A stretch of 64,000 nt of DNA from a candidate division Zixibacteria bacterium HGW-Zixibacteria-1. GTDB lineage: Bacteria; Zixibacteria; MSB-5A5; GN15; PGXB01. Both the position numbers and the translations under genes were made by a program. The notes under the pieces are model-generated. The model was given only the letters and a program-made list of their open reading frames with translations, was not told where the DNA came from and did not search any database. Shown piece after piece: positions 30,993-60,564 of the stretch (positions within the stretch are counted from its first letter, which is position 1; every line of letters begins with the position of its first letter). The stretch covers positions 124,001-188,000 of the forward strand of contig PGXB01000001.1 in assembly GCA_002838945.1 (NCBI GenBank), in the 5' to 3' direction.

Positions 30993-30993
30993 A

Positions 30994-33317: not shown

Positions 33318-33404
33318 TATTATCAATCCCTCTACTATTTTTCCCGGTTTATCCCAGCCGATTTTAATAACATTTCCGGCGCCGGATTGTTTCCATAAAT
33401 TATA

Positions 33405-36697: not shown

Positions 36698-37456
36698 ATG
36701 AGTATCGGGACGGCATTACGGATTTCGGGTATCGGCATGGTGCTTCTGGCGTTACTGACACTTTCTGCGGCCGCACCGCAGGATGATGAGAAGAAGGAGA
36801 AGGCTGATCATAATAATGTAAGCTGCCCGCAGTGCCACTCATTTGCAGAAACCAAAGCCGACGCGACCGCCGAAAGCCGCAACCGCAGTGACAATTGCAC
36901 CGGATGCCATACGCTTTCCACTTTGGAGCCTTCGGCATATCCCCTAAATTTTCATAATAGTGCCGCCGGCAACTGCCTGGATTGCCATCAATTTCATAAA
37001 AAAGCTATGATCAAGGCAGGCTCCCGTGTGTTTGCGCTCGATTTCGACTCAAAATCACAACTGTTTCAATGTCTTACCTGCCATAATGATTCGGTAAGTC
37101 TCGATAATCTGTCGGCTGGACACAAGACGGCCGCAGCGGTGTACCATTCCGATAACCCGGCCCTGACATTCTTATCCCCATCGGAAAAATGCCTTATCTG
37201 CCACTCGACCCGCTCCGATGCCTTCCCCGACCTGGTGAAGGCCGGATTGAACCCGCCTTCTTTCGACGAACATGCCAGCCATCCGTTTGGGGTCTCCGCC
37301 AAAGCGGGAGGAGTTGAGATAAATGAAGAGAAGGTCGTTTTATATGAAGGCCGGATCGAATGCCAGTCATGTCATGAATTCGAGAACCCCAAAAACGGCG
37401 AGTTGGCCGTATTCGAATATCCCGGCGAAACCTGCCGGGTGTGTCATCCCCACTGA
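36698..37456 (+). CDS. heptaheme c-type cytochrome
   Basis: Exported cytochrome of 252 residues with seven CXXCH sites (CPQCH, CTGCH, CLDCH, CLTCH, CLICH, CQSCH, CRVCH). A hydrophobic N-terminus (IGMVLLALLTLSAAA) acts as a signal or anchor, so it should be periplasmic. The spacing includes C..CHxFH, as in doubled-CXXCH proteins, but the overall arrangement is not one I can name. No strong ribosome site precedes ATG 36698; the ATG at 36737 is an alternative start. It is the first gene of the plus-strand cytochrome locus and may carry electrons through the periplasm toward the outer-membrane components downstream. The role is inferred from position. Confidence 0.88.
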   Translation: MSIGTALRISGIGMVLLALLTLSAAAPQDDEKKEKADHNNVSCPQCHSFAETKADATAESRNRSDNCTGCHTLSTLEPSAYPLNFHNSAAGNCLDCHQFHKKAMIKAGSRVFALDFDSKSQLFQCLTCHNDSVSLDNLSAGHKTAAAVYHSDNPALTFLSPSEKCLICHSTRSDAFPDLVKAGLNPPSFDEHASHPFGVSAKAGGVEINEEKVVLYEGRIECQSCHEFENPKNGELAVFEYPGETCRVCHPH

Positions 37457-37586: not shown

Positions 37587-37779
37587 ATCTTTTTTTTGAC
37601 AAACCGGACAAAAAAGACTTGCTTTTTCCAGATTATATATTAGATTTGGCCCAGCGTGGATAAAAGAGATACATATTAGGGCAATTTACTCGCCGTTAAG
37701 TTAGACCATGAAAGATTGTGAAAATATTCACAGGGCTACTGCGCCGAATAATGTCTGTCAGGAAGGCAGGACTAAATTG

Positions 37780-38955
37780 ATGAACCGCATAATGATAACA
37801 GCTACTGTCTGGCTGCTGGGCCTGTTTTCTCCGATTTCTATTATGGCGCAGTCCGAAACATCGCTCTCGGTGCCGGCTCAGTTTGTGCGATTTCTGACCG
37901 TTCCCGGGACCGAAAATCACCTTTTACGGCCGGGGCGAATTCTAATCGAAGCCAATACAAATGAGATATATGTCGCCGATCCGGGCAACAGCCGGGTGAC
38001 AATTTTCGACTCCAAGGGTATCTTCTTATATGAATTTTCCACGGTCGATCAATGCGGGGCGCCGACCGATTTGGCCGTCGATTCCCAGGGGTATATATAT
38101 GTTTTGGGCACGACGCTGGAAGGGCCAAAGATATTCATTTATGATTTTGATGGAAAATTTATCAAGGTTTTCAATCCGGCGCTGTCTGACGGGCAAAAAA
38201 TTAATACAGGCAGTCTCGCCATCAGTGATAGAGACAAACTATATGTACTGGATCTTTCCGGGCCGCGCCTTCTCGGTTTTGACTTCAATGGTAACCTCGA
38301 GTCGGAAATAAAGATTGAAAACGAGATGGATGAAACGCTGCGGGAAGAGCTCTTTTTCGGTTCGCTTTCCATAAAGAATGAGGTGATTTACCTGCCGGCC
38401 GCTTCGCAGGGTGAAATTCTCCGTTTTAATATCAGCGGCGAGAAGCTGCCGTCCATGGGTTATAAAGGAAGCGGTGTCGGCGAGCTGGGATTTCCCGTAT
38501 CGGTTAGTGTTTCCGATGACGGTATCATTGCAGTTCTCAATAAGCACCGTTACAATGTCGTTTGTTTCACCGAATCCGGCCGGTTTTTGGGAGAATTCGG
38601 CGGCAAGGGAATGCGCGCCGGATGGTTTTATCATCCCACCTGGCTGGCGATCGGTCCGGAAAACGAAATTTATATCGGCCAAACTTACAATAATATGGTC
38701 CAGGTCTGTCGGCTGCCGCAATTTATTGTGGACCGACATTTACAGATACACAGCAATAATTCAAACCGCGAGGTTGATCCACAAATGGCAACCGGCGGCC
38801 AAAAGATTCATTTGGAACCGGATCCTGAACTCTCAAACGGAACAGCGATGGAACCTGGAACACAACAACACTTATTTTTTTCATCACATTCTGTACACCG
38901 GCAGGATCTAGACCTGCCCGGAATCAACTCTAATGCGCTTAAGGAGGTTCACTAA
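37780..38955 (+). CDS. NHL-type beta-propeller protein, exported
   Basis: Exported protein of about 391 residues. A signal peptide (ITATVWLLGLFSPISIMAQ) is followed by six-bladed NHL-like repeats, for example NEIYVADPGNSRVTIFDSKG, PTDLAVDSQGYIYVLG, and PTWLAIGPENEIYIGQTYNN. The C-terminal 50 residues are polar and Gln/His/Asn-rich. ATG 37780 is preferred over 37708 because it gives a clean signal peptide and follows GGCAGGA. Its stop overlaps the next start (TAATG), so it is coupled to the OmcS-like cytochrome. As I recall, NHL-repeat genes also accompany omcS-type genes in Geobacter. It may help assemble or anchor the filament; there is no direct evidence. Confidence 0.88.
   Translation: MNRIMITATVWLLGLFSPISIMAQSETSLSVPAQFVRFLTVPGTENHLLRPGRILIEANTNEIYVADPGNSRVTIFDSKGIFLYEFSTVDQCGAPTDLAVDSQGYIYVLGTTLEGPKIFIYDFDGKFIKVFNPALSDGQKINTGSLAISDRDKLYVLDLSGPRLLGFDFNGNLESEIKIENEMDETLREELFFGSLSIKNEVIYLPAASQGEILRFNISGEKLPSMGYKGSGVGELGFPVSVSVSDDGIIAVLNKHRYNVVCFTESGRFLGEFGGKGMRAGWFYHPTWLAIGPENEIYIGQTYNNMVQVCRLPQFIVDRHLQIHSNNSNREVDPQMATGGQKIHLEPDPELSNGTAMEPGTQQHLFFSSHSVHRQDLDLPGINSNALKEVH
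38941..38947 (+). promoter_or_regulatory. strong Shine-Dalgarno for the OmcS-like cytochrome
   Basis: A full AAGGAGG lies inside the end of the NHL gene, seven bases before ATG 38955. It is among the best ribosome sites in the locus and suggests high translation of the hexaheme protein relative to its coupled neighbour. Confidence 0.75.
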
Positions 38956-40022
38956 TGCGCAGAATGTTTCTACTTGTAGCAGCCATCTGCTTCGTTTTCG
39001 GCGGAAGTGCTTATGCCTTCCACGATGCCGGCGTCGCATACTGTGCCGGCTGCCACACTATGCACAACAGTAAGGACGGCGCGCTGGTCGATCCCGACAG
39101 CCCGAACGGCAATGACTGGCTGTTGAAAGACGCGACACCCAGTGATGTCTGTCTTTCATGCCATGCCACCAGCCGCGGCGCTGTCTTCACGGCCGACCCG
39201 CTGGCCCCGCCGACCACCAAGGGCGGCGGCAACTTTGTTTTCCTTCTGGAAGACAACCTTAACGACGGCCACGGCGGCGCTACCAATCCTATCAATGGTG
39301 ATGCCGCAGGTCACAATCTCAACGCTCCGTCCAAAGGCGTTGCCGGCGACGGAACCCTGCTGTCCTCACCGGGCGGCGCTTTCCCGTCATCCGAACTGGG
39401 TTGCTCCAGCTGCCATGATCCGCACGGAAATACCAATTTCCGTTTGCTCTATGGCGCCGGTTCCATCCAGGACGGCCTGTTCACCTTTACCAATGCCGCT
39501 CCTGATGCCGAAGGTCTGTCCACCGGTTCTTCCGGCGGCGTCGAGTCCAATTCGAATCATACCGCTTACCACAGCGGCATGAGCGCCTGGTGCGGAAACT
39601 GCCACGGTGATTTCCACAATGTCGGCAGCACCATGAAGCACCCGACCGATCATACTCTCGGCGCTACCATTGCGACCAATTACAACCTTTACAATGGCAC
39701 CGAAGACATCACTGGTGGTGCTGCGGCGACCGCTTACCTGGCGGACGTTCCGTTCGAAGATGCGGCCACGACGACCACATCGACTGCCGGTCCTTCTTCC
39801 ACCAGTAAGGTCATGTGCTTGAGCTGCCATCGCGCGCACGCTTCGTCGGCTCCGAATGCCGGCCGTTGGGAATTTGCCGTCACTCTTCTCGAAGAGGATG
39901 GTGTGGAATCAGGTTCCTATGCGATTCCTGATCCCTACAACAGCCCCAACCAGCGCTCGCTGTGCAACAAGTGTCACGTCAAAGACGTCAATGACGAAAT
40001 CGTTACTGTTGTTGTTCCGTAA
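38955..40022 (+). CDS. OmcS-like hexaheme cytochrome, probable nanowire (filament) subunit
   Basis: Exported cytochrome of 355 residues with six CXXCH sites (CAGCH, CLSCH, CSSCH, CGNCH, CLSCH, CNKCH). After the signal peptide (FLLVAAICFVFGGSAYA) the mature protein begins FHDAGVAYCAGCHTMHNS, nearly the start of Geobacter OmcS as I remember it. Other OmcS landmarks follow in order: ELGCSSCHDPHGN, YHSGMSAWCGNCH with nearby DFHN, TLGATIATNYNLYN, CLSCHRAHASS and QRSLCNKCH. Heme number, order and spacing match the subunit of the extracellular filaments. Extra histidines (H23 at the mature N-terminus, HTMH, HDPH, RAH) can serve as distal ligands, including between subunits. Neighbours are two beta-propellers, a beta-barrel, CsgG-like proteins and a PPIase. 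Filament formation is inferred. Confidence 0.9.
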   Translation: MRRMFLLVAAICFVFGGSAYAFHDAGVAYCAGCHTMHNSKDGALVDPDSPNGNDWLLKDATPSDVCLSCHATSRGAVFTADPLAPPTTKGGGNFVFLLEDNLNDGHGGATNPINGDAAGHNLNAPSKGVAGDGTLLSSPGGAFPSSELGCSSCHDPHGNTNFRLLYGAGSIQDGLFTFTNAAPDAEGLSTGSSGGVESNSNHTAYHSGMSAWCGNCHGDFHNVGSTMKHPTDHTLGATIATNYNLYNGTEDITGGAAATAYLADVPFEDAATTTTSTAGPSSTSKVMCLSCHRAHASSAPNAGRWEFAVTLLEEDGVESGSYAIPDPYNSPNQRSLCNKCHVKDVNDEIVTVVVP

Positions 40023-40082
40023 GGTGCGACACGCTTACGACGGAATCATTGATTTATTCTTTTCGTCTGTTTTATTCGCGCG

Positions 40083-40109
40083 ACGCCCGAGTCTTACACT
40101 CGGGCGTTT
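40083..40109 (+). terminator. hairpin after the OmcS-like gene, possible partial terminator or RNA stabiliser
   Basis: Perfect 9-bp stem, ACGCCCGAG (40083-40091) with CTCGGGCGT (40099-40107), has a 7-base loop and a short TTT tail. It lies 61 bases after the hexaheme gene and 30 before the next gene. The T tract is short, so it may allow read-through. It could limit downstream expression or protect the upstream mRNA 3' end, raising the subunit level. Confidence 0.6.
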
Positions 40110-40138
40110 CGTGCGAGAAAAAGGGGTCTGGATTAAGA

Positions 40139-41575
40139 ATGCGGTTCATTAAAAAAACATCGACAGCAGGGTTTGCCTGGTCGTTTATTGCATTTCTGCT
40201 GATCGGCGCCCCTTTTCTTATCTTGCAGCTATCCGCTTTTTCACAAACATCCGGCGTTTCTGACGACTCCCAGATTGTTGTTTATATCGAGACGGGAGAA
40301 TCATTTCCCGACCGGGTGGAAACAGAACTGGCCTCACTTCGATTGTCCGGCAATCAGGGCATGGTCGAGCTGCCGGTGAGACATGCCTCACTGAACATCC
40401 CGGTCGGCTCCGGCCAACAGGTGCTCCTGTCGGAAGCCGCGATACCGCCGGGCCACTATAATTCTCTTATCTTTGCATTTAAGAAAGTTAAAGTTATGAT
40501 CAAAGGCGGGATGGTGGAGCTGCCCGATCCGCCCGAAAGCGTTACTGTCGCTATCGATGTGCATATTGTCAGAGAAACGGCGGAAACCATCTTTCTTCAA
40601 TGGTCGCCGGAATTGCATGTCAATGATGACGAACAAGTGGTTTTTAGCCCGCGTTTCAAGCTGCTGCCGAATGACATTCCACCTTCAGGGGGCTTGATTT
40701 TTGTCGCCAATGAAGGTTCGGATAATCTGACGGTTATAGACCGGTTCAACTACCGCATTGTCGATGTCATCAGAACCGGTACTGCCCCGCGCGGAATGGC
40801 TTATTCGCGTCTCAATCGTCAATTGTATGTGGCCAATTCGGAAGACAACAGCGTCGTTGTCATCGACTTGAACACACGCCAGACGTTGCGGACGGTTTTG
40901 CTCCGGTACGGCGACGAGCCGGGCCGTATGGCCCTGTCGCCTGATGAGCAGCAATTGTATGTAGTCAACCATGGTTCCAACACGATGTCGGTCTATGATA
41001 CCCAATCCTTCCAGGAAATGGATCGAGTGACTCTGGGAACTGCGCCGGCGGCGATAGTCTCCGACCGGCTCAGCGGCAATGTTTATATCAGCAACCTGCG
41101 TTCGGAGGATGTCTCGGTTTACCAGCCGATCGAGCAAGCGGTCGCGACAACGCTGGCCGTGGGCGGATCGCCGTCCGAAATTGCCCTTGATGATCGTGAC
41201 AGGGTTTTGTACCTGGCTTTCGACAGACAAAGAAAAATATCTTTTATCGACCTGCGCACCGGAAACAATCTGGGGACGCTTAATATTTGCTCCCCGGCGG
41301 TCGGCCTGGCCTATCATCGCGGCTCGCGTCAACTCTACACAGCGATGGCCGACTGTTCCGAAATCGCCATAATAAAACCGGAAAACGGGCTCAAGCTCGG
41401 GCAGATTCTCGTTCCCGGCCGCCCCGGGTTGATTACGCTCGATCCGGAAAACAGGTTCTTGCTGGTCGTCATGCCGGAGGAGAACAAATTGGTGGTAATC
41501 AATGTTGTCAGCAGGGAAGTGATGGCACAAATCGAGGTCGGGGAGCGGCCGTATATGGCAATAGTTCCGGAGTGA
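40139..41575 (+). CDS. YVTN-type seven-bladed beta-propeller surface protein
   Basis: Exported protein of 478 residues. After the signal sequence (GFAWSFIAFLLIGAPFLI) comes a beta-rich domain of about 170 residues (QIVVYIETGESFPDRVETEL to PRFKLLPNDIPP) that resembles DUF4382-type carbohydrate-binding-like modules. Then follow YVTN/YncE-like repeats: GLIFVANEGSDNLTVIDRFN, RQLYVANSEDNSVVVIDLNT, QQLYVVNHGSNTMSVYDTQS and others. ATG 40139 is used; a longer frame from 40049 would overlap the hairpin. It may sit at the cell surface and interact with the filament or the beta-barrel seven bases downstream. The function is not known. Confidence 0.85.
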   Translation: MRFIKKTSTAGFAWSFIAFLLIGAPFLILQLSAFSQTSGVSDDSQIVVYIETGESFPDRVETELASLRLSGNQGMVELPVRHASLNIPVGSGQQVLLSEAAIPPGHYNSLIFAFKKVKVMIKGGMVELPDPPESVTVAIDVHIVRETAETIFLQWSPELHVNDDEQVVFSPRFKLLPNDIPPSGGLIFVANEGSDNLTVIDRFNYRIVDVIRTGTAPRGMAYSRLNRQLYVANSEDNSVVVIDLNTRQTLRTVLLRYGDEPGRMALSPDEQQLYVVNHGSNTMSVYDTQSFQEMDRVTLGTAPAAIVSDRLSGNVYISNLRSEDVSVYQPIEQAVATTLAVGGSPSEIALDDRDRVLYLAFDRQRKISFIDLRTGNNLGTLNICSPAVGLAYHRGSRQLYTAMADCSEIAIIKPENGLKLGQILVPGRPGLITLDPENRFLLVVMPEENKLVVINVVSREVMAQIEVGERPYMAIVPE

Positions 41576-41582
41576 TAAAGTT

Positions 41583-43670
41583 TTGAAATATATGAAGCAC
41601 CATACAATAATGATATCGTTTTTCCTGCTGATAATCTTGGCGGCAGGGCGGCCGGCTCAGGCTCTTATCTCCGATAATCTCCGCGGAAATCTTCAGATTA
41701 CGGGGGTCAGTTCGGAATCGGAAGCACAAACCACCAAGTCGCTCAATCAGGAATATTCGATCAACTGGACGAAATATTTTACACCATATATTTTAACCAG
41801 GGCCTCGCTTCGTTATCATAATCTCGGGATCGATCAGAGCCAGTCGGCCAATGTCTGGCGCTATGATTACCAGCCGGCCGGTGAACTGGTCTGGAAACAT
41901 CCCTATTTTACCCTTGGCGGAATAATCCGGCGGCAGGAAACCACGAGCAGCAATGAGACCACCAATTTGATACGCAACAGTTCCGGCCTAACCTTTACGA
42001 CCAATTCGGTGAAATATCCGATGCTGGAGGTGCGTTATGACTGGAACCACACTTATAATGACAAGAATCGGATCGAGCGCGACACCCGGGAGCGCCGCCT
42101 GCAAACCGGTCTTAATTACAATTTTAAGCGACAGAGTTTCTATTACAACCTGGTTCGCAGGGATAATGCGAATGCCGGCAGCAACCTCGATATCACCGAG
42201 ACCCAGCATCTATTCCGCTGGAACCAATCATCATACTGGCTCGATAATCGGCTGCGTTTCAGTTCCGGATATGACTTCAACTATCGTTCCCAGAAAACCG
42301 AAAACCTCGGCGGCGACAAACTGCTCGAAAGCCTGCCTTTCTCGCGCGCCCTATATGGCATTGATCCCACGCCCGACCTGAGTGAGCTCGACAGTGTCAG
42401 CACCCTGGCCGACGGCAACATCACCGATCCGGCTCAGCCGACGATTGCTATCGGCGAGGGCCTGCTGGATCGAAATATGGGTTTCGATTTTGCCATCGAG
42501 CGTGAGGTCAGCGCCATCTATATATATACCGACCGCCCATCAGGCGCACAGTTGAGCTGGCGGATTTATGTTTCCGACGACAATCTAATCTGGAACCCGG
42601 TTACTTCCGCGGTCTTTGCCGAATTCAATACCAGTTTTAACCGGTATGAAATATTTTTCCCGCCTCAGACCACCCGATACATCAAGGCGGTCAATTCCGG
42701 ATTGAACGACGTCATAAGTGTCTATGTGACAGAAATTCAACCACTTATTGAAAAGCAGAATGTTGTAAAGGATAGCAAGAGTTCGTCATCGCACCTGGTC
42801 GATCTGGCGGCTAATTATGCCTTTTCGCGGATTTTCGAGACCTCGGCCGACCTGACTCTCCGCCGTGAACCGGGCGGCGGTTTCGGCAACAGCCGGGATG
42901 AAATATTTTATTCTTTGACCGGCCGGCATCGGCCGAGCTCAGCGATTTCGCAACTGGTTCGTTACCAGTCCGGGTATGAGAATCTCACGGATGGCGGCAC
43001 CCGCAACGACAGCCGCTCCCTGTCATACAGCCTCCTGATGTCGCCGCTGCCGACTCTCTCGTTTTCCTTTGCCGCCCTGACAAGAACCGATTATATTGAT
43101 AAAATAAAGACCAGGGAGACCAATAACCTGTTTTTTCAGACCAGTGGAAATCTCCTGGCCGGGCTGGATCTGTCGCTTGAGGCAGGCTACAATCGCAATA
43201 ATCAATTTGACTCGAGGACGGCCTACGACAGCTGGACCTACAGGTTGTCGGCCGATGCGAAAGTGCATCGCACCCTGGATGCGATATTTAATGTGTTGTA
43301 TCAATCGACCAACAGCTTGTCGGACGAAACGACGCGGATCAGGCGGCAATACAGCGCCGATCTGAATTATCGCCTGACCAGGACGATTTTAATGCGGGGA
43401 TCGCTCACATACGACGATGAAGAAAACCTTGATTATTTTTACCAGGAATATAACTTAAGCTGGAATCTCACACCCCGTATCACAATTGGAGCTTTGGCGA
43501 CGTTAAATGACGGCGATAGTGGTGTGAGAAGCGAACGGGCCAATATGCGGATAAATTATAAAATCAGTAATGGTAGTCTGCTGTTTTTCAGTTACACGAG
43601 GAATGAATTCGCTCTGGCTGACAGAACCCGGACGACGTCGTTGCAGATCGGTTTGAAATCCGGATTTTGA
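41583..43670 (+). CDS. outer-membrane beta-barrel protein with inserted discoidin-like domain
   Basis: Exported protein of 695 residues. After the signal (IMISFFLLIILAAGRPAQA) most of the chain alternates polar and hydrophobic residues in strands with aromatic ends, such as FTPYILTRASLRYHNLGI and QSFYYNLVRRDNAN, and it ends with Phe (IGLKSGF), as outer-membrane barrels do. About residues 290-395 a globular insert (LSWRIYVSDDNLIWNPVT, TTRYIKAVNSG) looks like an F5/8 type C fold. The start is uncertain: TTG 41583, ten bases after GGAG, or ATG 41592. In this setting it could be the outer-membrane channel for filament subunits or an electron conduit. No named family is recognised. Confidence 0.78.
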   Translation: MKYMKHHTIMISFFLLIILAAGRPAQALISDNLRGNLQITGVSSESEAQTTKSLNQEYSINWTKYFTPYILTRASLRYHNLGIDQSQSANVWRYDYQPAGELVWKHPYFTLGGIIRRQETTSSNETTNLIRNSSGLTFTTNSVKYPMLEVRYDWNHTYNDKNRIERDTRERRLQTGLNYNFKRQSFYYNLVRRDNANAGSNLDITETQHLFRWNQSSYWLDNRLRFSSGYDFNYRSQKTENLGGDKLLESLPFSRALYGIDPTPDLSELDSVSTLADGNITDPAQPTIAIGEGLLDRNMGFDFAIEREVSAIYIYTDRPSGAQLSWRIYVSDDNLIWNPVTSAVFAEFNTSFNRYEIFFPPQTTRYIKAVNSGLNDVISVYVTEIQPLIEKQNVVKDSKSSSSHLVDLAANYAFSRIFETSADLTLRREPGGGFGNSRDEIFYSLTGRHRPSSAISQLVRYQSGYENLTDGGTRNDSRSLSYSLLMSPLPTLSFSFAALTRTDYIDKIKTRETNNLFFQTSGNLLAGLDLSLEAGYNRNNQFDSRTAYDSWTYRLSADAKVHRTLDAIFNVLYQSTNSLSDETTRIRRQYSADLNYRLTRTILMRGSLTYDDEENLDYFYQEYNLSWNLTPRITIGALATLNDGDSGVRSERANMRINYKISNGSLLFFSYTRNEFALADRTRTTSLQIGLKSGF

Positions 43671-43692
43671 CAATGAATGGAAGGTGCATAAA

Positions 43693-44259
43693 ATGATAAG
43701 AACGGGATTGCTTCTGGCGGCAATAATTATTTTAATCGGGGGCTGCGGGGGCATGTCGCCATCGGTTTTTATCCATGATGAATACAATTTCCAGTATCTG
43801 GAAAGAGTGGCCGTGGTTCCTTTCGACAACCTGTCATCGGATCAGGGGGCGGGCGCCAGGGCATCAAGAATATTCATTTCGGAATTGCTGTCGGAAAGGG
43901 CGTTCGATGTCGTCGAACCGGGGGAAGTCACCAAGGCACTGGAGAAGTATGCCACCGTGCGCACCAGCCAGTTGACAAAAGAACAGATCATCAATATCGG
44001 CAAGGAACTTAAAGTGCAGGGAATCATCCTTGGCAATGTCACCGAAGTTTCGACATTCAGAAGCGGCGCCTCGACGACCAACACGGTTACGATGGTGGTA
44101 AGCATGGTCGAAACCGAGACCGGCATGACGGTCTGGTCGGCCACGAATACCTCCGGTAAGAAGGGCTTTTTCTCGTCCCTGTTCGGAACCGGGGATAAAT
44201 CCGAAAGCGAAGCCATGCGCGATTGCGTCAAGGGAACCTTGAAAACACTGATAAAGTAG
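43693..44259 (+). CDS. CsgG-like lipoprotein
   Basis: A 188-residue lipoprotein: signal RTGLLLAAIIILIGGC, with a lipobox ending in Cys. The mature part shows the CsgG/GNA1162-type core: ERVAVVPFDNLSSDQGAGAR, SELLSERAFDVVEPGEVTKA, GKELKVQGIILGNVTEV, then TVTMVVSMVETETGMTVWSA. CsgG forms the outer-membrane secretion pore for curli subunits; smaller relatives have less certain roles. ATG 43693 follows GGAAGG by eight bases. It starts 22 bases after the beta-barrel and is followed one base later by a tandem-domain relative. A role in secretion or assembly of the cytochrome filament is inferred from this context. Confidence 0.8.
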   Translation: MIRTGLLLAAIIILIGGCGGMSPSVFIHDEYNFQYLERVAVVPFDNLSSDQGAGARASRIFISELLSERAFDVVEPGEVTKALEKYATVRTSQLTKEQIINIGKELKVQGIILGNVTEVSTFRSGASTTNTVTMVVSMVETETGMTVWSATNTSGKKGFFSSLFGTGDKSESEAMRDCVKGTLKTLIK

Positions 44260-44260
44260 A

Positions 44261-45331
44261 ATGAAAATTATTCGGCTTAAATATATTATTGCACTGCTAA
44301 TCATTACGTTTATCGGTGTCATGCCGTGCGCCCAAAGCAGCCCCGAAAGCGATCAGGAGGCTGCCAAGACCACGCGGAAATACACGATTGCGATTCTTCC
44401 CTTTGTCAATTTCTCGGGTGAGACCCGGGGTGAAGAGGTCCTGATGCCCCTGATTCAGAGCCGGGTCGCCGGGAGCGATTTGATTGTCGTTGATTCTTCC
44501 CAATTGCGCCAGACTCTCCGCAAGCACCGCATCCGCTCATCCGGCGCCATCAATACATCCGACGCCTCTATAATAGCGGATGAGCTGGGCATTGACTTTT
44601 TATTGCTCGGATCAATCGATGTCTTCATCGAAAATGACCTTCCCGAAACCGGGTTTTCCGCCAGGTGTCTGGATGTAAAAAATATGAAAATATTCTGGGC
44701 CGTATCCGAAGCGGCCGGCGGCAATGATTTCACCGGGTTGCTGGGAATCGGACAAATCCGGGAGATCGACAAACTGGCGGAAAAGCTGGTCGGCGGCGCC
44801 TTCAAAAACTTCGAAAAAAGTATCAATGCTTATATTCGGAAAAATGAGACGGGCAAATCCTCGCCGACATTTGCTCTCGTTCCTTTCGATAACCTGTCGG
44901 CCCAAAAATTCGCCGGAGATGTAATCTCGACGATTCTATTGACCGAACTTGTTGACCGGGGAATGAGTGTAATAGAACCGGGGACGGTGGGTGAACTGTT
45001 TCGGTCGCACAATCGGGCGCTGCGCGGCGAAATCGACTTCGATATGATAACCGAATTGCGAAGCGGGCTGAACGCCGATTATGTTATTACCGGCAGCGTC
45101 AATCTTTTCAAAGCGGGACCGGGGGGAGTCGAAGGCTCCGGACCCGAAGTGGAGTTTGGCGGACGATGCCTGGATTCCGAGGATGGGCGAATTATCGGGG
45201 CCTATGAATATTCACGGCGCGGTACCAATTCCGCCGCGCTGCTTCGCCCCGGATCGACCAATTCGCTGGGGGAACTGTCACGGGACGCGGTCGAGGATTT
45301 TGTCAAAAAAGTGAAAAAAGATATTAAGTAA
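44261..45331 (+). CDS. tandem FlgO/CsgG-like exported protein
   Basis: A 356-residue exported protein (signal region YIIALLIITFIGVMPCAQ) with two copies of the same fold. Copy one (about 43-185) has YTIAILPFVNFSGETRGEE and LGIDFLLLGSIDVFIEND. Copy two (about 205-350) has PTFALVPFDNLSAQKFAGD, VIEPGTVGELFRSH and LNADYVITGSVNLFKAG. It starts one base after the CsgG-like lipoprotein stop, whose sequence is similar (PFDNLS, VVEPGEV), so the genes probably arose by duplication. The domain also occurs in the anti-sigma/TPR protein at 14042. The likely site is the periplasm or inner face of the outer membrane; the function is inferred only. Confidence 0.8.
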   Translation: MKIIRLKYIIALLIITFIGVMPCAQSSPESDQEAAKTTRKYTIAILPFVNFSGETRGEEVLMPLIQSRVAGSDLIVVDSSQLRQTLRKHRIRSSGAINTSDASIIADELGIDFLLLGSIDVFIENDLPETGFSARCLDVKNMKIFWAVSEAAGGNDFTGLLGIGQIREIDKLAEKLVGGAFKNFEKSINAYIRKNETGKSSPTFALVPFDNLSAQKFAGDVISTILLTELVDRGMSVIEPGTVGELFRSHNRALRGEIDFDMITELRSGLNADYVITGSVNLFKAGPGGVEGSGPEVEFGGRCLDSEDGRIIGAYEYSRRGTNSAALLRPGSTNSLGELSRDAVEDFVKKVKKDIK

Positions 45332-45370
45332 TATATTGGTGTGTGATAAAAGGGGAAAAGGTTTTTTAAA

Positions 45371-47023
45371 ATGAAATATTATCTGACTGCAATAATCGGA
45401 CTTGTAATACTTCTGGGAGCAGCGGACATATTATCAGCGGGTGAAAAGGATCCAGGTGATCAATCTTACCTGGCGGTCGTAAACGATGACACCATTTATG
45501 TCGCGGCCATGGATCAGATATTTATGAATCTGCATTCCAAATTGGACAAAGAGCGCAAGGAAAATTTCGATTACCGCAAATTGTTGAATAAAATGATTAA
45601 TGACCGCCTGATAATTCAGGAGGCGACGGCGCTGGGGCTGGATCAGGATGACCGGCTGCTTGACAAGCTCGGGCAAAGCCGGAAAAACAATGCCATGCGT
45701 CTCTATGCCCGGGAACAATTCAAAGCGGCCCCTGAGATAAGCGACAAGGATGTGCTCGATTATTTCAATAAGTATTATGCGAAACTTCAGTTGCGGACAA
45801 TATCGGTTCAGGACTCCGCCCTGGCGCGGACATTTATCGCCGCCATCAAGGGCGGTGCACCGATGGACAGCATCGCCGAAGCATCATCGATGGATATGTA
45901 TCGCTATAAAGGCGGCCTGCACAATCTAAAATACTATGCGGACGTCGAGAGAGAACTGCGGGATCAGGCCGATAAATTGAAACCCGGCGGCATTTCGGCA
46001 CCGTTCAGGTATCGGCAGGTGTATGCTTTCCTCCGCGTGGAAAAGACCATGCCCGCCGACACATCGGAGCTGGCGACGTATGCCAAAAAAATCAGGTCGG
46101 TTCTTGAGCAACAAGTGCGCGGAGCGAAATGGACAGAATTTATCGACGGACTTGAAAAGCGTTATCCATTCCGGACCGATTCAGCCGTAATTGCCCGAAT
46201 CAAAGCCGATAGTGCAAAATTGTACACTCCGGATTTTACCGATGGCTCAGGTGATCCGATTTTTGTCGGAAGCGGTCAATATTCTTACTCCGAGGCCGAG
46301 GTTCGCACGGGAGTCTCGCGCCTTGCGATGGAACGAGGCGACCTGCCCTTCGACTCTCTGTTGCAAATAGGCTTGATTTCGGCCAAGGATGAATTTGTCC
46401 TGACCATGGCGTCATCAGAGGACGGCTACCTGGAACGCCCCGAAGTGGTTTCTCAATATATCAACAGCCTTGACAGTTCATTGATTGAAACCTACATTAA
46501 AGAGACGGTTGTTTCGCAAATAACGTTCAATCATGCCGAATTCGACGCCTATTACAATGAACATCTTGATGATTTCCGCGAACCGGATGAGATTGAACTG
46601 GGACGACTGGATATTCCCGATGAAAAAACGGCCGCCGAGATCGAGAAAAGATTGAAAGATGGGGCCGATTATGATTTTATTGCGCGGGAATACGGACGCA
46701 CCGCCGATGTCGTGGAGGAAAAGACGCAATGGATTTCGCTCCAGGTACTTCCCGATCAGGTCAAAAGCGAACTGGAACTTCTTAAAATCGGCGAATCGAG
46801 CCGGGTTTTTCCGACATCCGAGGGATTGATGATCTTTCATGTCAGCGGCAGGAGGCCCGGACGGGTAAAAGAGATGAGTGAAGTGGAAATGAAAATTCGG
46901 GAAATCATGTTCCAGAGAAAATTCGATGAATTGCTCGACAAGGCTCTTACCTTGATAAAGGCGGGGTCCGAGATCGAATACAATGAGCCGGCCATAGGCA
47001 AATATTTCGGTGAGGGGTCATGA
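45371..47023 (+). CDS. SurA/PpiC-type peptidyl-prolyl cis-trans isomerase, exported
   Basis: Exported protein of 550 residues. After the signal (YLTAIIGLVILLGAADILSA) there is a SurA-N-like helical part (VNDDTIYVAAMDQIFMNLHS, MINDRLIIQEATALG), a first parvulin-like region (about 130-220, LQLRTISVQD, SIAEASSMDMYRYKGG), and a second one near 400-500 (IELGRLDIPDEKTAAEIEKR, ADYDFIAREYGRTAD, GESSRVFPTSEGLMIFHVSG). Such chaperone-isomerases fold outer-membrane and secreted proteins in the periplasm. PPIase genes also occur, as I recall, in clusters encoding cytochrome filaments, so a dedicated folding role for the cytochromes or barrels here is plausible. It is in line with the upstream genes, 39 bases after the tandem CsgG-like gene. 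Confidence 0.87.
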   Translation: MKYYLTAIIGLVILLGAADILSAGEKDPGDQSYLAVVNDDTIYVAAMDQIFMNLHSKLDKERKENFDYRKLLNKMINDRLIIQEATALGLDQDDRLLDKLGQSRKNNAMRLYAREQFKAAPEISDKDVLDYFNKYYAKLQLRTISVQDSALARTFIAAIKGGAPMDSIAEASSMDMYRYKGGLHNLKYYADVERELRDQADKLKPGGISAPFRYRQVYAFLRVEKTMPADTSELATYAKKIRSVLEQQVRGAKWTEFIDGLEKRYPFRTDSAVIARIKADSAKLYTPDFTDGSGDPIFVGSGQYSYSEAEVRTGVSRLAMERGDLPFDSLLQIGLISAKDEFVLTMASSEDGYLERPEVVSQYINSLDSSLIETYIKETVVSQITFNHAEFDAYYNEHLDDFREPDEIELGRLDIPDEKTAAEIEKRLKDGADYDFIAREYGRTADVVEEKTQWISLQVLPDQVKSELELLKIGESSRVFPTSEGLMIFHVSGRRPGRVKEMSEVEMKIREIMFQRKFDELLDKALTLIKAGSEIEYNEPAIGKYFGEGS

Positions 47024-47091
47024 GGTTATATTTTTTGCACGATGTAAATAATAATTACACGGATATTTTCCTGAAAAGGGTAATTTAGGAT

Positions 47092-47727
47092 ATGAGAATC
47101 AGGAGCTTACTTTCATCGCTGACATTGACGGCGTTTCTGCTGGCAGGATTGTTGATACAATTTTCGCCGCAGGATGCCGCCGCTCAGGTGAAAAAAGGCA
47201 AGCGTTTTTCCAGCAAGGGGAACTGTCTCGAATGTCATAAGGAGGCCGACTTCGCAGGCGGTACCAAGCATAAACCTTTTGCGGAGAACAAGTGTCTTTC
47301 CTGCCATAAGCCGCATGGAATTGTCGGTGTCTTAAGGTTGAAGGACGATATCAAAACGATATGTCTTGAATGTCACGACCAAACAGCTCTGGGACTGGAC
47401 AGGAAGATTCTGCACAAACCGGTGGCGGACGGTGATTGCACGGTCTGCCACAATCCGCATGCCGGTGAAGGCAAGGGAATTCTCAAGGAAGCGTCGCCGC
47501 AGCTCTGCTACGGCTGTCATGACCAGTCCGACTTCGAGCGCGTTCACAAACACAAGCCCCTCGAAAAAGGCTGTTTCTCATGCCACGAAATTCACGGCAG
47601 TGATCATAAGGGTCTGCTGGTCAAGGATGAAAAGGATTTATGCCGCGACTGCCATGATACCAGGGCGGCCGGTTTTGCCAAAGCTCATGCCACACCACTC
47701 ATACCTCCGATCAGCCCGGCCTGCTGA
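47092..47727 (+). CDS. multiheme cytochrome, N-terminal part (7 hemes), cut by a frameshift
   Basis: Signal peptide (LLSSLTLTAFLLAGLLIQF, cleavage near DAAAQ) followed by seven CXXCH sites in doubled-CXXCH arrangement: CLECH, CLSCHKPHG, CLECH, CTVCHNPHA, CYGCH, CFSCHEIHG and CRDCH. After GFAKAHA the frame loses the family pattern and stops at TGA 47725. The -1 frame continues the pattern with QPGLLTTSIHGPV, CESCHNPPGG and then the next open frame. One base is therefore missing between about 47686 and 47703, by mutation or by an assembly error. Without the break the protein would have about 642 residues and 25 hemes. It probably lies in the periplasm or at the cell surface. Confidence 0.85.
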   Translation: MRIRSLLSSLTLTAFLLAGLLIQFSPQDAAAQVKKGKRFSSKGNCLECHKEADFAGGTKHKPFAENKCLSCHKPHGIVGVLRLKDDIKTICLECHDQTALGLDRKILHKPVADGDCTVCHNPHAGEGKGILKEASPQLCYGCHDQSDFERVHKHKPLEKGCFSCHEIHGSDHKGLLVKDEKDLCRDCHDTRAAGFAKAHATPLIPPISPAC

Positions 47728-47807
47728 CCACCTCGATACACGGCCCGGTACAGGGAGGCGCGTGCGAAAGCTGCCACAATCCGCCCGGCGGCCCGGACCA
47801 GTTCGGC

Positions 47808-49019
47808 GTGACTACCGCCGGTTCGGAGATGTGTCTCCTATGTCATGATGAACCGGAAAAAGGAACGCATGATCCGGTTGCCGACGGCGAGTGCCTGACC
47901 TGCCATAACCCGCACGGTTCGAAATATAAGGCCCTGCTGGCCGAGGCGCCGATAAAACTATGTCTTAAGTGTCATGATGACGTGCAGGATGAACTGGTCA
48001 TGAGCTCCAACCATAAACCGGCCCGCCAGGATTGCACCCTGTGTCATTCCGCGCACGGCAAGGTTGCCGATAAATTGATCAGCAAGGATATCAATACCCT
48101 CTGCGGTGACTGCCATCAGGATGTGAAGGAATCGGCTTCGCTTGAATATACGCACTATCCTTTTGTCGATGGAAGCTGCCTTGACTGCCACACCCCGCAC
48201 GGTTCGACCTTCGAGAAGTTGACGAAAAGCAACCGCCTTGATCTTTGCGGTGAATGTCATGATGATATCGACAAATGGGTCGTCATGAAAAGTCCGCATG
48301 TTCCGGTCAGAGCCGGGCAGTGCAATGTCTGTCATGAGCCGCATGCGTCGTCGCAGGCGGCCCTGCTGAAAGGAACGCGCAGCGATTTATGCCTTGGCTG
48401 CCATGAAAGCCTGGTTAAGGAGGGCGAAGGATTCGCCCTGCATCCGCCTTTCGAGGAAAAAGAATGTGACCTTTGCCACCAGCCGCACGGCTCCGATATA
48501 AAGGGTCTGCTGTCGGCCGATCAGAATAAAATCTGCGGCGAATGTCATGACGATGTTGTCACTCCGCCCGAAGGCACTCACAGCAACCATAAACCGGTTG
48601 AAAATGGTTCCTGCACTAGCTGCCACCAGCCGCACATGTCGAAGATCAACGGACTTCTGCTGGATAAACCGGAACAATTGTGCCTGTCCTGCCACGCCGA
48701 TATTCTTAAGCATGCCGAAGGCGGCATGGTGCACGCACCGGCTGAAGACGGTGAATGTCTGGGATGCCACCAGCCGCATCATAGTCAATTCGTATCGCTT
48801 CTGACCGAGGATGTACCGGCCCAGTGCCTGAACTGCCATGACGGCGATGATTCCGAATTCAAATCCAAACATTTGAGCCTCAGCGGCAGCCAGATCGATT
48901 GCCGGAAGTGCCATAATCCGCATGTTTCCAATGAAGGCGTCCTCATGAATGCCCATTCACACGACCCCTTCGGCAGCGGCGACTGCTATGCCTGCCATCA
49001 GCAGGAGGACAAGCGATGA
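47808..49019 (+). CDS. multiheme cytochrome, C-terminal part (17 hemes) after the frameshift
   Basis: A 403-residue open frame with 17 CXXCH sites in alternating CxxCH / CxxCHxPHG pairs (doubled CXXCH domains), for example CLLCH, CLTCHNPHG, CLKCH, CTLCHSAHG and CGDCH, ending CYACHQQEDKR. It has no signal peptide, and its GTG 'start' has no ribosome site. It is the continuation of the gene starting at 47092, with one further heme site (CESCH, near 47763-47777) in the link between them. Its stop overlaps the next cytochrome start (ATGA). If the frameshift is real in the cell, this part would not be exported or given heme. I think it more likely one 25-heme protein. Confidence 0.85.
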   Translation: MTTAGSEMCLLCHDEPEKGTHDPVADGECLTCHNPHGSKYKALLAEAPIKLCLKCHDDVQDELVMSSNHKPARQDCTLCHSAHGKVADKLISKDINTLCGDCHQDVKESASLEYTHYPFVDGSCLDCHTPHGSTFEKLTKSNRLDLCGECHDDIDKWVVMKSPHVPVRAGQCNVCHEPHASSQAALLKGTRSDLCLGCHESLVKEGEGFALHPPFEEKECDLCHQPHGSDIKGLLSADQNKICGECHDDVVTPPEGTHSNHKPVENGSCTSCHQPHMSKINGLLLDKPEQLCLSCHADILKHAEGGMVHAPAEDGECLGCHQPHHSQFVSLLTEDVPAQCLNCHDGDDSEFKSKHLSLSGSQIDCRKCHNPHVSNEGVLMNAHSHDPFGSGDCYACHQQEDKR

Positions 49020-50236
49020 GAACAACATCATTTATCATACTATCGGCGATACTTTGTTTTATGGCGCCATCCATGGCCTCGGTCGTGAAGGTCGATGAGC
49101 CGGCGGTTTGCCTGATGTGTCATTCCGAGATCGAGGAGTTGATGACGCAGAAGCACCGCCACACTGCTTTCGAAGGCGGCAAATGCTCCGATTGTCACAA
49201 CCCGCATGCCTCGAAACATGCCGCCCTGCTGAATGATGACACCAGGGACCTTTGTCTGGAGTGCCATGACGATATAAAATCGCAGCTTCAGATGACGACG
49301 GTTCATAATCCGGCCATGCAGGGGGAATGTCTTGCATGCCACGACCCTCATGCTTCGGCTCTGCCCGATCAATTGAAGGAGAAGGGCTCCAAGCTCTGCC
49401 TGCGGTGTCATGAAAACGTCGAGACCTGGCTGCAGCGGTCATATGTGCATCAACCGGTCGCCGACAACTGTCAAAACTGTCATTCTCCGCATGCCTCGAA
49501 TTCCGGCAAGCTGCTGACACAGGACATTCCGAAACTCTGCTTCGGCTGCCATAAACAGGACGCCGCTTTCAGTACCGCCCATAAGGGGTATAATCTGAGC
49601 GATGCCAATTGTGTTACCTGTCATGATCCTCATTCGGCGACACAGCCCAACCTGCTGATGGCCAATCAACATTCACCGTTCAGCGGCGGCAAGTGCAGTA
49701 CCTGCCATGCCACCCAGGGCGCAACATCCTCGTTCGAACTGGTGTCCGATGTTAAGACGTTATGTCTCAAATGTCATCGGGGTCTCAAGGATCAGACCGC
49801 GCTGACTTATCATCACAATCTGGATGACGAGCGCTCCTGCCTGAATTGCCACAACCCGCATGCTTCACCGACCCAGTCTATGCTGGCGGCGGACCAGAAG
49901 GTCCTGTGCATGCGCTGCCATTTCAACGGTGAAAAATATGCCGGCAAGGACAAGAACAAGTATATTACTCATAAGGGAATAGACTGTACCAACTGCCACA
50001 CCCCGCACGGATCGAACAATGAAAGATACCTGGCCGGGGATGGGATCAAGACATGCGACGGCTGTCACGGCGATGCACACAGAAGCTCGCACCCTGTCGG
50101 CGAGGATGTCATCGATCAGCGAACCGGCAAGCCGGTTATCTGTCGGAGCTGCCACTGGCTCCACGGCGCCGATTTTGAGCCGTATCTGCCGCTGAATCCC
50201 AAGGGAGACCTTTGCATCCAGTGCCACCGGAAATAA
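49016..50236 (+). CDS. 16-heme doubled-CXXCH cytochrome
   Basis: Exported cytochrome of 406 residues with 16 CXXCH sites. The signal peptide (SFIILSAILCFMAPSMA) is followed by doubled CXXCH repeats: CLMCH, CSDCHNPHA, CLECH, CLACHDPHA, CLRCH, CQNCHSPHA, CFGCH, CVTCHDPHS, and so on to CRSCHWLHG and CIQCH. It overlaps the preceding cytochrome by four bases, and the two are clearly related, so they probably arose by duplication. Dense heme chains of this kind act as electron wires or capacitors in the periplasm or at the surface. A strong terminator follows, marking the end of the nanowire-like operon. Confidence 0.9.
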   Translation: MRTTSFIILSAILCFMAPSMASVVKVDEPAVCLMCHSEIEELMTQKHRHTAFEGGKCSDCHNPHASKHAALLNDDTRDLCLECHDDIKSQLQMTTVHNPAMQGECLACHDPHASALPDQLKEKGSKLCLRCHENVETWLQRSYVHQPVADNCQNCHSPHASNSGKLLTQDIPKLCFGCHKQDAAFSTAHKGYNLSDANCVTCHDPHSATQPNLLMANQHSPFSGGKCSTCHATQGATSSFELVSDVKTLCLKCHRGLKDQTALTYHHNLDDERSCLNCHNPHASPTQSMLAADQKVLCMRCHFNGEKYAGKDKNKYITHKGIDCTNCHTPHGSNNERYLAGDGIKTCDGCHGDAHRSSHPVGEDVIDQRTGKPVICRSCHWLHGADFEPYLPLNPKGDLCIQCHRK

Positions 50237-50495: not shown

Positions 50496-51839
50496 ATGTC
50501 AAAAAAACACGATAATAAGAGTATGAATTCACAACCAAGACTACTATCGTCTTATTTCTCCTGTCTTTATCGTATGACTGACAGACACTTATCCAATCCC
50601 AACTCGCATCGTTTCATTCTAATTGCCATTTTCCTGATTCTGGGAATGGCTTCGATGTTTTTCCGCCCATTATATGCGGCCGAATTGAATGGAAGCCTTT
50701 CCAGCGAGATGTATTTCTGGGAAGCGGGCGACAGCTCGCATATCCGCCCTTATGAAAGTATCCGGGCCGATTTAATCGCCTGGAGGCCCGAGCCGTATCG
50801 ACAGTTGTCGTTTCATACGTACCTTCGCTGGACAACCGATCTGTCCGACAAATTTGCGACCGATCCTCAGACATATATATATGATTCATATCTCCGGCTG
50901 GCCGGGTATCCTTCCGGATCGAATATTTATCTCGGACGGCAATTTGTTTATTCGGCGGCGGGGAGCGCTTTTATCGACGGTCTTCGATTCAAATATAATG
51001 TATCCCGTGCATTCAAATTTGACATGTACGGCGGTAGTAACGTATCCGGAACCGAGCCGGAAAAAGTGCAGTCATTGTCGGATAATGCGGTTGCCGGGAT
51101 GCGCCTGTCATATATTTTGGGTCGCTCGAACGTTTTTGGCCTGAACTGGATGATGCGGCGTTCCGACGGTTCAATAGCGTATCATCGCGTCGGCTTCGAT
51201 CTGAACAGCGGCGGCCGGGCCTGGAATATGTATAATCGTGTTTCATATAATGCGGCCAATCTACGACTTGCCGAGTTCCTGTCCCGAGTTTCATGGACCC
51301 GATCCAAATGGTATATTTCGGGGGAATTCAACTGGCGTGAACCGTCGGTCCCCGGCAATACCTTATTCACCCTGGTCGAATTTAATCGCTACAAACAGAT
51401 CAGGCTGGAATTGAATCGTGCCTTATGGCAGCATTTGCGGCTTGTGACCAGGTTCAATTATGATTTCTTCACGGAAGAAGATTCCTGGAATGCCAGTCTC
51501 GGCCTGAACGGCGGCATCTGGTCGTTATCATGGCGGCACAAGACGGGCTACGGCGGTGACAATGACGGACTGGTCGGCTTCACCAATATTCGGCTTTACC
51601 CGACTCTGGAACTTTACGCCAGCGCCAATTTCAGCCGGTATCGCGTTCAGGATATGCAGGAGGAACTCAGCGATTCATATATGACGACTTTGGGAATTCA
51701 GAAAAATTTCGGTAAAAGCACAACCGTCAGGGCGGAGGGGCAGTACCTTCGCAATGCCGTTAGAAACGATGACACCCGTTTCTATTTCAGGTTTGTCAAA
51801 GGATTTTCTTTTGCTTCGCATGGAGAGGATGGAGAGTAG
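50496..51839 (+). CDS. outer-membrane beta-barrel (porin-like) of the second cytochrome group
   Basis: A 447-residue barrel protein. A polar N-terminal stretch precedes the export signal (FILIAIFLILGMASMFF, ending near LYAAE). The mature chain starts LNGSLSSEMYFWEAGDSSHI and is made of amphipathic strands with aromatic girdles, for example SFHTYLRWTTDLSDKF, WNASLGLNGGIWSLSWRHK and LELYASANFSRYRVQ. The start is uncertain because no ribosome site is evident; ATG 50523 or ATG 50574 would shorten the leader. It abuts two large cytochromes (the stop TAG is followed directly by ATG), an arrangement like porin-cytochrome conduits (OmbB-OmaB-OmcB type). I infer that it sheaths a heme chain across the outer membrane. 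Confidence 0.8.
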   Translation: MSKKHDNKSMNSQPRLLSSYFSCLYRMTDRHLSNPNSHRFILIAIFLILGMASMFFRPLYAAELNGSLSSEMYFWEAGDSSHIRPYESIRADLIAWRPEPYRQLSFHTYLRWTTDLSDKFATDPQTYIYDSYLRLAGYPSGSNIYLGRQFVYSAAGSAFIDGLRFKYNVSRAFKFDMYGGSNVSGTEPEKVQSLSDNAVAGMRLSYILGRSNVFGLNWMMRRSDGSIAYHRVGFDLNSGGRAWNMYNRVSYNAANLRLAEFLSRVSWTRSKWYISGEFNWREPSVPGNTLFTLVEFNRYKQIRLELNRALWQHLRLVTRFNYDFFTEEDSWNASLGLNGGIWSLSWRHKTGYGGDNDGLVGFTNIRLYPTLELYASANFSRYRVQDMQEELSDSYMTTLGIQKNFGKSTTVRAEGQYLRNAVRNDDTRFYFRFVKGFSFASHGEDGE

Positions 51840-52892
51840 ATGAAACATTGGAAAATCATCATAGTTATGATTGTATCGGTCCTGTCTCTTGCCTGGCTGG
51901 CATGGGGTTATCCATCGACGCAACTGACCGTTCCTCCCGGCGATATCAAGTTTGCCCATGCCAATCACACCGACCTGGAATGTCTCACCTGCCATGCCGG
52001 AGCCGAAACGAGTGTGTCCCCACAGGATAAACTGTATCCGGCGATGGAAGTATGCGGGGATTGTCATGACATCGAAGAGGTCGATGGATGCGGCACCTGC
52101 CATCGCAGTATTGATGACCCTCAGGCCTTGCCCAATCCTGACCGACCGATTGAATTCAACCATAAGAAGCATTTCGAGCAAAAGATAAAATGTACTCATT
52201 GCCATGACGGCATTGCCGAAAGCAGGGAGTCGAGCACCACCTACATGCCGACCATGCCGCTGTGCATGACGTGTCACGACGGCATCAAAGCCGACAACAG
52301 TTGCGCCCTGTGTCACGGGCAGAGAATCACGCTGCTGGATATTCACCCGCAGGACTGGCGGCATCAGCATGGCGATAGAGCCACGAGCGATCCCGAATTT
52401 TGCGGCGGATGCCACCGCAGTGAAAGATTTTGTGCCGAATGTCACCGCGAAGATAATCTCGAGGGGAACATTCACGACCTTAATTATGAATATACGCACG
52501 GGCTCGATGCCGGCAGCAAGGAAAAGGACTGCGCCCGCTGTCATGACAGAAAACTTTTCTGCAATGCCTGCCATGAGAGACAAAACCGCATCCCGCTGGA
52601 ACACTCGACCTTGAACTGGCTGTCGGAACACGGCCTGGCGGCGCGCAATGATATCGAGAACTGCGCTTCCTGCCACGACTCGAGTGATCCGACCTGCGCC
52701 AGGGGCGGTTGTCATCGTGATATCGACGGCATCAGGGGCACCGATCCGCGCATCCATACGGGGAATATGGCTTTTCTTCAAAGTAAAGGTCTCTGGCACG
52801 GGGATGACGGTTATTTCTGTTTTCAGTGCCACACCAGCACCCGGGCGACCGGTGGGGGCTTCTGCAGTTACTGCCATGAATCCGGAGATTAA
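51840..52892 (+). CDS. multiheme cytochrome with 13 CXXCH and one CX4CH, probable periplasmic conduit
   Basis: A 350-residue cytochrome with an N-terminal signal or anchor (IIIVMIVSVLSLAWLAWG). Heme sites run from CLTCH, CGDCH, CGTCH and CTHCH to CFQCH and CSYCH; the site CARGGCH has four residues between the cysteines (CX4CH) and may also bind heme. The FAHANHTDLECLTCHAG and FNHKKHFEQKIKCTHCH segments match the cytochrome c3/c7-like pattern of HxxH before CXXCH. It begins one base after the porin-like stop and is followed 18 bases later by the lipoprotein cytochrome. The periplasmic-side partner of an outer-membrane conduit is the best reading. Confidence 0.87.
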   Translation: MKHWKIIIVMIVSVLSLAWLAWGYPSTQLTVPPGDIKFAHANHTDLECLTCHAGAETSVSPQDKLYPAMEVCGDCHDIEEVDGCGTCHRSIDDPQALPNPDRPIEFNHKKHFEQKIKCTHCHDGIAESRESSTTYMPTMPLCMTCHDGIKADNSCALCHGQRITLLDIHPQDWRHQHGDRATSDPEFCGGCHRSERFCAECHREDNLEGNIHDLNYEYTHGLDAGSKEKDCARCHDRKLFCNACHERQNRIPLEHSTLNWLSEHGLAARNDIENCASCHDSSDPTCARGGCHRDIDGIRGTDPRIHTGNMAFLQSKGLWHGDDGYFCFQCHTSTRATGGGFCSYCHESGD

Positions 52893-52910
52893 GACAGGGG
52901 CATAAATTTT

Positions 52911-60055: not shown

Positions 60056-60564
60056 GCCACAATCCTGTGTGATAAAGTGTGCGCCAAAGCACCGGGATGA
60101 AAAATCAGAGTGAGTCAAACCAATCCGGTTTAATTTAAATATATGCATGAAGGCGAATCATGCAAGCATTTTCGACAAAAGATCGCAGGCAAATTATAAT
60201 AACCATTTCCCAATAGCACTCTAACCGCCGGCGTTTTACGATATTTTTTTCAAACAATATTTTTTTCTGTAAGATTCGGGCCGCTTAACTGATTGGATTC
60301 ATGAAGAGCATAATATGAGCACGGGAAATCTTTGACAACGACCGGGGATGAAAACTACCACACGGCAACACCATAAACACATTTGGGCAAACTTATTAGC
60401 ATAATCCACGTTCTGAAGTTCGCTGTCCGCATCGCTTAATAAATTTAAAAAGAAAGGAGGTTTAAAAGGACACACAGATGTCGGTCCCGGAGACAGGGCA
60501 ATCCGGTTAATGCGTGGGATCAATTAATAGGACTTTTAGGAAGTCTTATACCTTAGGAGGAAAG
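60056..60564. other. 509-base divergent region before the C25-type peptidase gene
   Basis: Control region for the CHAT gene (minus) and the peptidase gene (plus). A full AAAGGAGG (60453-60460) stands well upstream with no proper gene after it. AGGAGG at 60555-60560 is the ribosome site of the peptidase. A short frame from about 60478 encodes ten residues only. No promoter or riboswitch is recognised with confidence. Confidence 0.45.

Follow-up and report, generated by a model that had tools for sequence, protein, structure and literature searches.

The closest described relative of the system discussed here is OmcS of Geobacter sulfurreducens (6EF8, 6NEF), a hexaheme cytochrome for which a filament has been seen and which has 12 histidine ligands, 11 supplied by its own chain and one, on heme 5, by a neighbouring subunit (Filman et al., PMC6584659). 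An eight-gene "nanowire secretion" block, GSU2500-2493, has been described in genomes that include Citrifermentans bremense and Geobacter H2geo (PMC12977616), and the osc (omcS-companion) cluster has been published as "widespread and ancient" (Shen et al., 2025). OmcS homologues outside Geobacter have also been reported, including in sulfate reducers that partner anaerobic methanotrophic archaea (ANME), where they belong to an OetABI/OmcX-OmcS cassette (PMC10553843). Here we examine a 64,000-nucleotide stretch of a Zixibacteria genome (contig PGXB01000001.1, positions 124,001 to 188,000; "the window"), in which a hexaheme cytochrome gene at 38955..40022 (+) lies within a unit of companion genes. 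The system is a new, deep-branching member of the OmcS family with a complete companion block, of a cluster type that is itself already known.

The hexaheme cytochrome and its place in the OmcS family

The product of 38955-40022 has 355 amino acids, contains six CXXCH motifs and starts with a Sec signal peptide that, by inspection, ends in AYA directly before FHD, so that the mature chain runs from F22 and begins FHDAGVAYCAGCHTMHNS. When this protein was searched with phmmer against all PDB chains, the sole match with E < 1 was OmcS (6ef8/6nef, E = 1.2e-40), aligned in three consecutive stretches over residues 22-344. A profile of 49 hexaheme family sequences matched OmcS over its full length at E = 6.5e-148, with the runner-up at E = 0.06. 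OmcE, OmcZ and the archaeal nanowires were matched neither in the PDB sequence search nor by Foldseek, and the similarity is thus specific to OmcS rather than a generic multiheme likeness. The protein is a hexaheme cytochrome of the OmcS family (OmcS/OmcT/OmcJ/GSU2501-like), and chance resemblance is excluded. A sequence-only reading had proposed an OmcS-like protein here, citing a set of landmark motifs and the number and order of the hemes. It had named the lack of a significant alignment to OmcS-type cytochromes as an outcome that would refute it, and this outcome did not arise. Every one of those landmarks lies in the open reading frame (ORF), and the heme arrangement is that of OmcS, at 42% identity (7-row MAFFT alignment). 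The two proteins share the mature N-terminus FHxxGVAxCxGCHTMHNS, but the mature chain in the window has 334 residues as against 407 in OmcS, with shorter loops between motifs 3-4 and 5-6.

Twelve histidine columns are conserved in the hexaheme family, 11 of them in 65/65 sequences and that of OmcS position 16 in 62/65, while other histidine columns score far lower. They are residues 23, 34, 37, 70, 120, 154, 157, 217, 229, 292, 295 and 341 of the window protein, corresponding to 2, 13, 16, 51, 110, 144, 147, 243, 257, 332, 335 and 404 of OmcS, the number expected for the six bis-histidine hemes of OmcS. In this alignment H37 of the window protein occupies the position of OmcS His16, reportedly the ligand that OmcS donates to the neighbouring subunit (Wang et al. 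2019). The three homologues that lack H16 are additional paralogues, two in Geobacteraceae (L064, L049; L numbers denote loci of relatives and G numbers the genomes compared) and one in a Myxococcota-type metagenome-assembled genome (MAG; L050), and H16 can therefore be lost when it is not needed.

A template-free AlphaFold2 model of the hexaheme (predicted local distance difference test, pLDDT, 68.8; predicted template-modelling score 0.70) is of only moderate quality and shows the OmcS fold. A Foldseek search of the PDB with this model gave OmcS 6ef8 as its single match (E 1.7e-16, template-modelling score 0.71), and comparison of the model with OmcS in VIA gave Z 22.4 and 3.7 Å over 312 residues. 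The N-terminal ten-residue block just before H16 combines a conservation of 0.73, among the highest, with a monomer pLDDT of 46, nearly the lowest. This pairing of conservation with low confidence is what might be expected of a segment that needs a neighbouring subunit. We treat it as supportive only, because conservation and pLDDT per ten-residue block correlate weakly (Spearman 0.28, p 0.11).

In a maximum-likelihood tree of 70 sequences, the window hexaheme falls in a 24-row clade (97/98) of MAGs of Fibrobacteres-Chlorobi-Bacteroidetes (FCB) type plus one from Acidobacteriota, whereas OmcS and the block-linked hexahemes of Geobacterales form a different 37-row clade (97/97). As judged from this tree, the window protein belongs to the family but is no orthologue of OmcS; it branches as a deep sister to the clade that holds OmcS, OmcT and GSU2501. 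Recent transfer of the locus from Geobacter was considered and rejected as unlikely on sequence grounds, since the FCB clade is separate and the G+C content of the cluster (0.52) is close to that of its surroundings. Nested in the FCB clade is also a subclade of second-copy OmcS-like proteins (L109, L111, L114, L029 and L023 2385-3563), most of which are without the companion block.

The host RpoB shares 69% identity with that of a MAG from the same order, deposited under the name "Calditrichaeota bacterium CLD4". Near full-length alignments to RpoB of most of the Krumholzibacteria, Delongbacteria and unnamed MAGs compared give 55-60%, and the longest segment aligned with a Geobacter relative gives 54%. 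The sequence-only reading had assigned the window to an FCB-type host, which these identities make plausible but do not prove. Its view that the system is little described in such a lineage is fair, in that our literature search found no pairing of OmcS with Krumholzibacteria, but it overstated the novelty, given that the osc cluster had already been published as widespread.

A conserved block of companion genes

The hexaheme gene belongs to a conserved unit that spans 37708-50236, entirely on the + strand, with intergenic spacing of -4 to 68 bases. The unit opens with companion propeller 1, a secreted six-bladed NHL beta-propeller (37708..38955, likely start 37780; PF01436/PF17170), which in relatives is conserved either before or after the omcS-like genes. 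Directly after the hexaheme comes a YVTN/lactonase-type beta-propeller (40049..41575, likely start 40139; PF10282, TIGR02276) that is 26-27% identical to its Geobacterales counterparts (E 5e-31 to 6e-42) and is not at the equivalent spot in several relatives. It is followed by a large outer-membrane beta-barrel (41583..43670), modelled by AlphaFold at pLDDT 88 with about 29 strands and a CBM32/discoidin-like insert around residues 220-345 of the mature protein. The barrel part had no sequence match in the PDB; among structures, its highest VIA Z was to MtrB (6r2q_B, Z 16.7), in a tie with unrelated outer-membrane barrels (Z 16.3).

Next come two lipoprotein-like genes and a chaperone candidate. 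The first is an LpoB/CsgG/PelC-like lipoprotein (43684..44259; PF13036; PelC 9h80 at E 0.0022), 28-34% identical to its Geobacterales counterparts, and the second a two-lobed LpoB/FlgO-like protein (44261..45331; PF13036, weak PF17680) that likewise has Geobacterales counterparts. The third is a SurA/PPIC-type peptidyl-prolyl isomerase (PPIase; 45371..47023; PF13145, E 3e-21), by position an OscH-type chaperone, with a counterpart in L045 at E 2e-13. The sequence-only reading closed its collinear unit of two propellers, barrel, two CsgG/FlgO-like proteins and isomerase at 47023. These members stand, but the block continues through two further cytochromes to 50236: a 26-heme MtrA/DmsE-like protein (47092..49019; MtrA 6r2q_A, E 2e-15; TIGR03508 at 190.9 bits, just under the 192.2 cutoff) and a 16-heme MtrA-like protein (49016..50236; MtrA 6r2q_A, E 9e-17). 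Both match MtrA of the Shewanella MtrAB system (6R2Q), from which the window set differs in its greater number of hemes and in a larger barrel with the discoidin-like insert.

The frame of the 26-heme gene is broken around 47658-47727, whereas most relatives carry a single 26-heme ORF. The first piece is an ORF at 47092-47727 with 7 CXXCH motifs, and a second open frame runs from about 47658, with 17 motifs from 47808 on and one more before 47808. Comparison with L106, a locus from the same phylum, suggests at the sequence level that a short out-of-frame deletion removed one heme site. This may be a real mutation or an assembly error.

All eight Geobacterales companion types are present in the window when it is compared with L045, L048, L060 and L062 together (PMC12977616 is the basis for taking these four loci to carry the published block), and they are collinear apart from the NHL propeller, which precedes the hexaheme in the window, as in L062, and follows it in Geobacter H2geo (L060). 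As in the GSU2501/osc cluster, the order directly after the hexaheme is YVTN propeller, barrel, LpoB, LpoB, PPIase, 26-heme and 16-heme cytochrome. The companions are about 20-40% identical to those of that cluster, and the window differs from it in its broken 26-heme gene. The block is likewise found after the OmcS-like genes of Citrifermentans bremense, Geomonas and Geobacter H2geo. Judged either wholly or for the part that the contig covers, its order is kept in Krumholzibacteria (L025, L027), Fibrobacteria (L022), Acidobacteriota (L033), Nitrospirota (L043, L047) and Rokubacteria (L055), as well as within the host's own phylum (L106, L107, L108, L110, L112, L113, L115, L116, L124-L128). 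The block order recurs, then, in several phyla.

Within the host's phylum the hexaheme occurs in 18 of 132 genomes (E <= 1e-25), and the barrel is present in 17 of these 18 and in none of the remaining 114. The exception, G079, shows only a paralogue, without the block. Compared with G034, the hexaheme is the most constrained gene (80% identity; ratio of nonsynonymous to synonymous differences, pN/pS, 0.20), with companions at 43-65% identity and pN/pS of 0.32-0.55, values that serve as a ranking only because synonymous sites are near saturation in this comparison. The hexaheme is under purifying selection, and both pieces of the split 26-heme gene are also well under 1 against G034. The comparison with OmcS made in the sequence-only reading is borne out by the sequence, the set of ligand histidines, the predicted fold, the neighbouring genes and their co-occurrence with the hexaheme, and its interpretation of the locus is supported.

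A 7-heme c7/NrfB-like cytochrome (36698..37456, +; Pfam c7/c3) is a probable accessory to the unit. By tblastn several relatives have it just upstream of the block, while others have it close by or on the opposite strand (L107, L108, L116, L126, L110, L031).

Filament, conduit or secreted cytochrome

We put the probability that this locus makes an OmcS-type extracellular cytochrome filament, together with the machinery for its assembly or for conduction, at roughly three in four. The hexaheme (38955) would be exported by Sec and then loaded with heme, the PPIase (45371) would handle it in the periplasm, and the lipoproteins (43684, 44261), together with the barrel (41583), would help it across the outer membrane. 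Subunits could then polymerise head-to-tail, with His16 (window H37) of one subunit ligating heme 5 of the next to give a continuous heme chain that would conduct. The MtrA-like 26- and 16-heme cytochromes may relay electrons through the periplasm and the outer membrane, either to or from the filament. Shen et al. 2025 reportedly treat the osc block as assembly machinery, with OscH as a chaperone, OscEFG as a channel and OscD as a propeller.

Several points weigh against a filament. None has been seen for this bacterium. The hexaheme branches outside the OmcS/GSU2501 clade, and the 26-heme gene is broken in the present assembly. CXXCHxxH is a common multiheme motif, so that H16 by itself proves little and it is all twelve histidines together that carry the ligand argument. 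The predicted fold is of moderate quality, and OmcS may have been in the AlphaFold training set. The physiological role of OmcS itself is also disputed (PMC11077965).

A different emphasis is possible, if doubtful: the block could be mainly a conduit of MtrAB/OetABI type, with the 26- and 16-heme cytochromes inside the barrel and the hexaheme outside the cell as its terminal cytochrome or as a filament. For Murali et al., what is apparently the same cluster is an OetABI conduit with OmcS/OmcX filaments (PMC10553843), and their cassette, though from another phylum, likewise brings together a barrel, large multiheme cytochromes and an OmcS-like filament candidate. The matches of the two large cytochromes to MtrA point the same way, as does the first place of MtrB among the barrel's structural matches, but the tie with unrelated barrels means that this last match is not distinctive. 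A PPIase and LpoB/PelC-like proteins suit secretion, and OscEFG and OscH are reported to be secretion and folding factors for OmcS (Shen et al., 2025). The evidence from the companions is thus mixed, and they may serve in secretion, in conduction or in both. The conduit and filament readings partly overlap, and our confidences in the several readings do not sum to one.

It is less probable still that the hexaheme stays unpolymerised as a secreted or surface cytochrome, as may be the case for GSU2501, and that the block is a general secretion route later adopted by OmcS. In Geobacter the constant companions of the eight-gene block are the GSU2501-type hexahemes, not OmcS, and the work that describes the block itself puts forward this alternative (PMC12977616); the branching of the window protein outside OmcS also fits it. 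Yet all 12 ligand histidines are kept, including the H16 that three extra paralogues elsewhere have lost, and the conserved, low-confidence N-terminus suggests a partner. Finally, decay or loss of function of the locus in this genome, for which the apparent deletion in the 26-heme gene could speak, is very improbable, as all the remaining genes are open, pN/pS is well under 1 for the hexaheme and for each split piece, and the deletion lies within repetitive sequence of a draft assembly and is possibly an artefact.

Surroundings and related systems

A set of three + strand genes downstream of the block is probably a second outer-membrane porin-cytochrome conduit (50496-55562), a point of difference from the OetABI/OmcX-OmcS cassette. 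It comprises a barrel-like porin of 447 amino acids, assigned by inspection, with no CXXCH and no family match (50496..51839), a cytochrome with 13 CXXCH (51840..52892), and a lipoprotein-like multiheme cytochrome with 21 CXXCH and 4 CX4CH (52911..55562; PF09698/TIGR01904, Geobacter CxxxxCH/CxxCH repeats) and a lipobox-like GC near its N-terminus. Just after these, at 55764-56992, lie a sigma-70 region 2 protein and a zinc-finger anti-sigma-like protein, followed at 57026-60148 (-) by a 1040-residue TPR-CHAT protein. On the other side, divergent from the block, heme-synthesis genes occupy 29595-36285 (-): HemN, HemE and an aminotransferase by Pfam, and HemD-, HemC- and HemA-like proteins by ORF reading. 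Neither the heme-synthesis genes nor the 50496-55562 set was found beside the block in the relatives examined. Elsewhere in the same genome (L102, contig 7), an MtrA-like decaheme cytochrome adjoins a barrel-like protein, along with Rieske and cytochrome b proteins and cytochromes of 4 to 19 hemes, and extracellular electron transfer therefore fits the organism.

A second OmcS-like system, a divergent one, occurs in the host's phylum as well (L118, L121, L119, L120, L122; genomes G041, G042, G017, G006, G037). Its hexahemes, up to three per locus, are about 30% identical to that of the window and keep all 12 ligand histidines, and their neighbours include two LpoB-like proteins and a propeller. 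In L118 and L121 a single 42-heme ORF matches both the 26- and the 16-heme cytochromes (26 + 16 = 42). The strong-match genomes of this system do not overlap with those that hold the window type. Further afield, tandem hexahemes of the Gram-positive Neobacillus (L083, L085, L089, L094) show about 28-31% identity along part of their length and keep 9-11 of the 12 histidine positions, including position 16, with F replacing histidine at position 2.

A compact outgroup subunit of 334 residues with a complete block is well suited to testing whether OmcS filaments are a late invention of Geobacter or an ancient trait, and whether the companion genes serve as secretion machinery or as an electron conduit. 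Tentatively, and at somewhat less than even odds, the FCB clade may be an old, separate branch of OmcS-type nanowires, with polymerisation and the whole osc machinery predating OmcS, in a phylum that also holds the divergent system of about 30% identity with its fused 42-heme protein. With this locus, an uncultured FCB lineage becomes a likely exporter of electrons over long distances.

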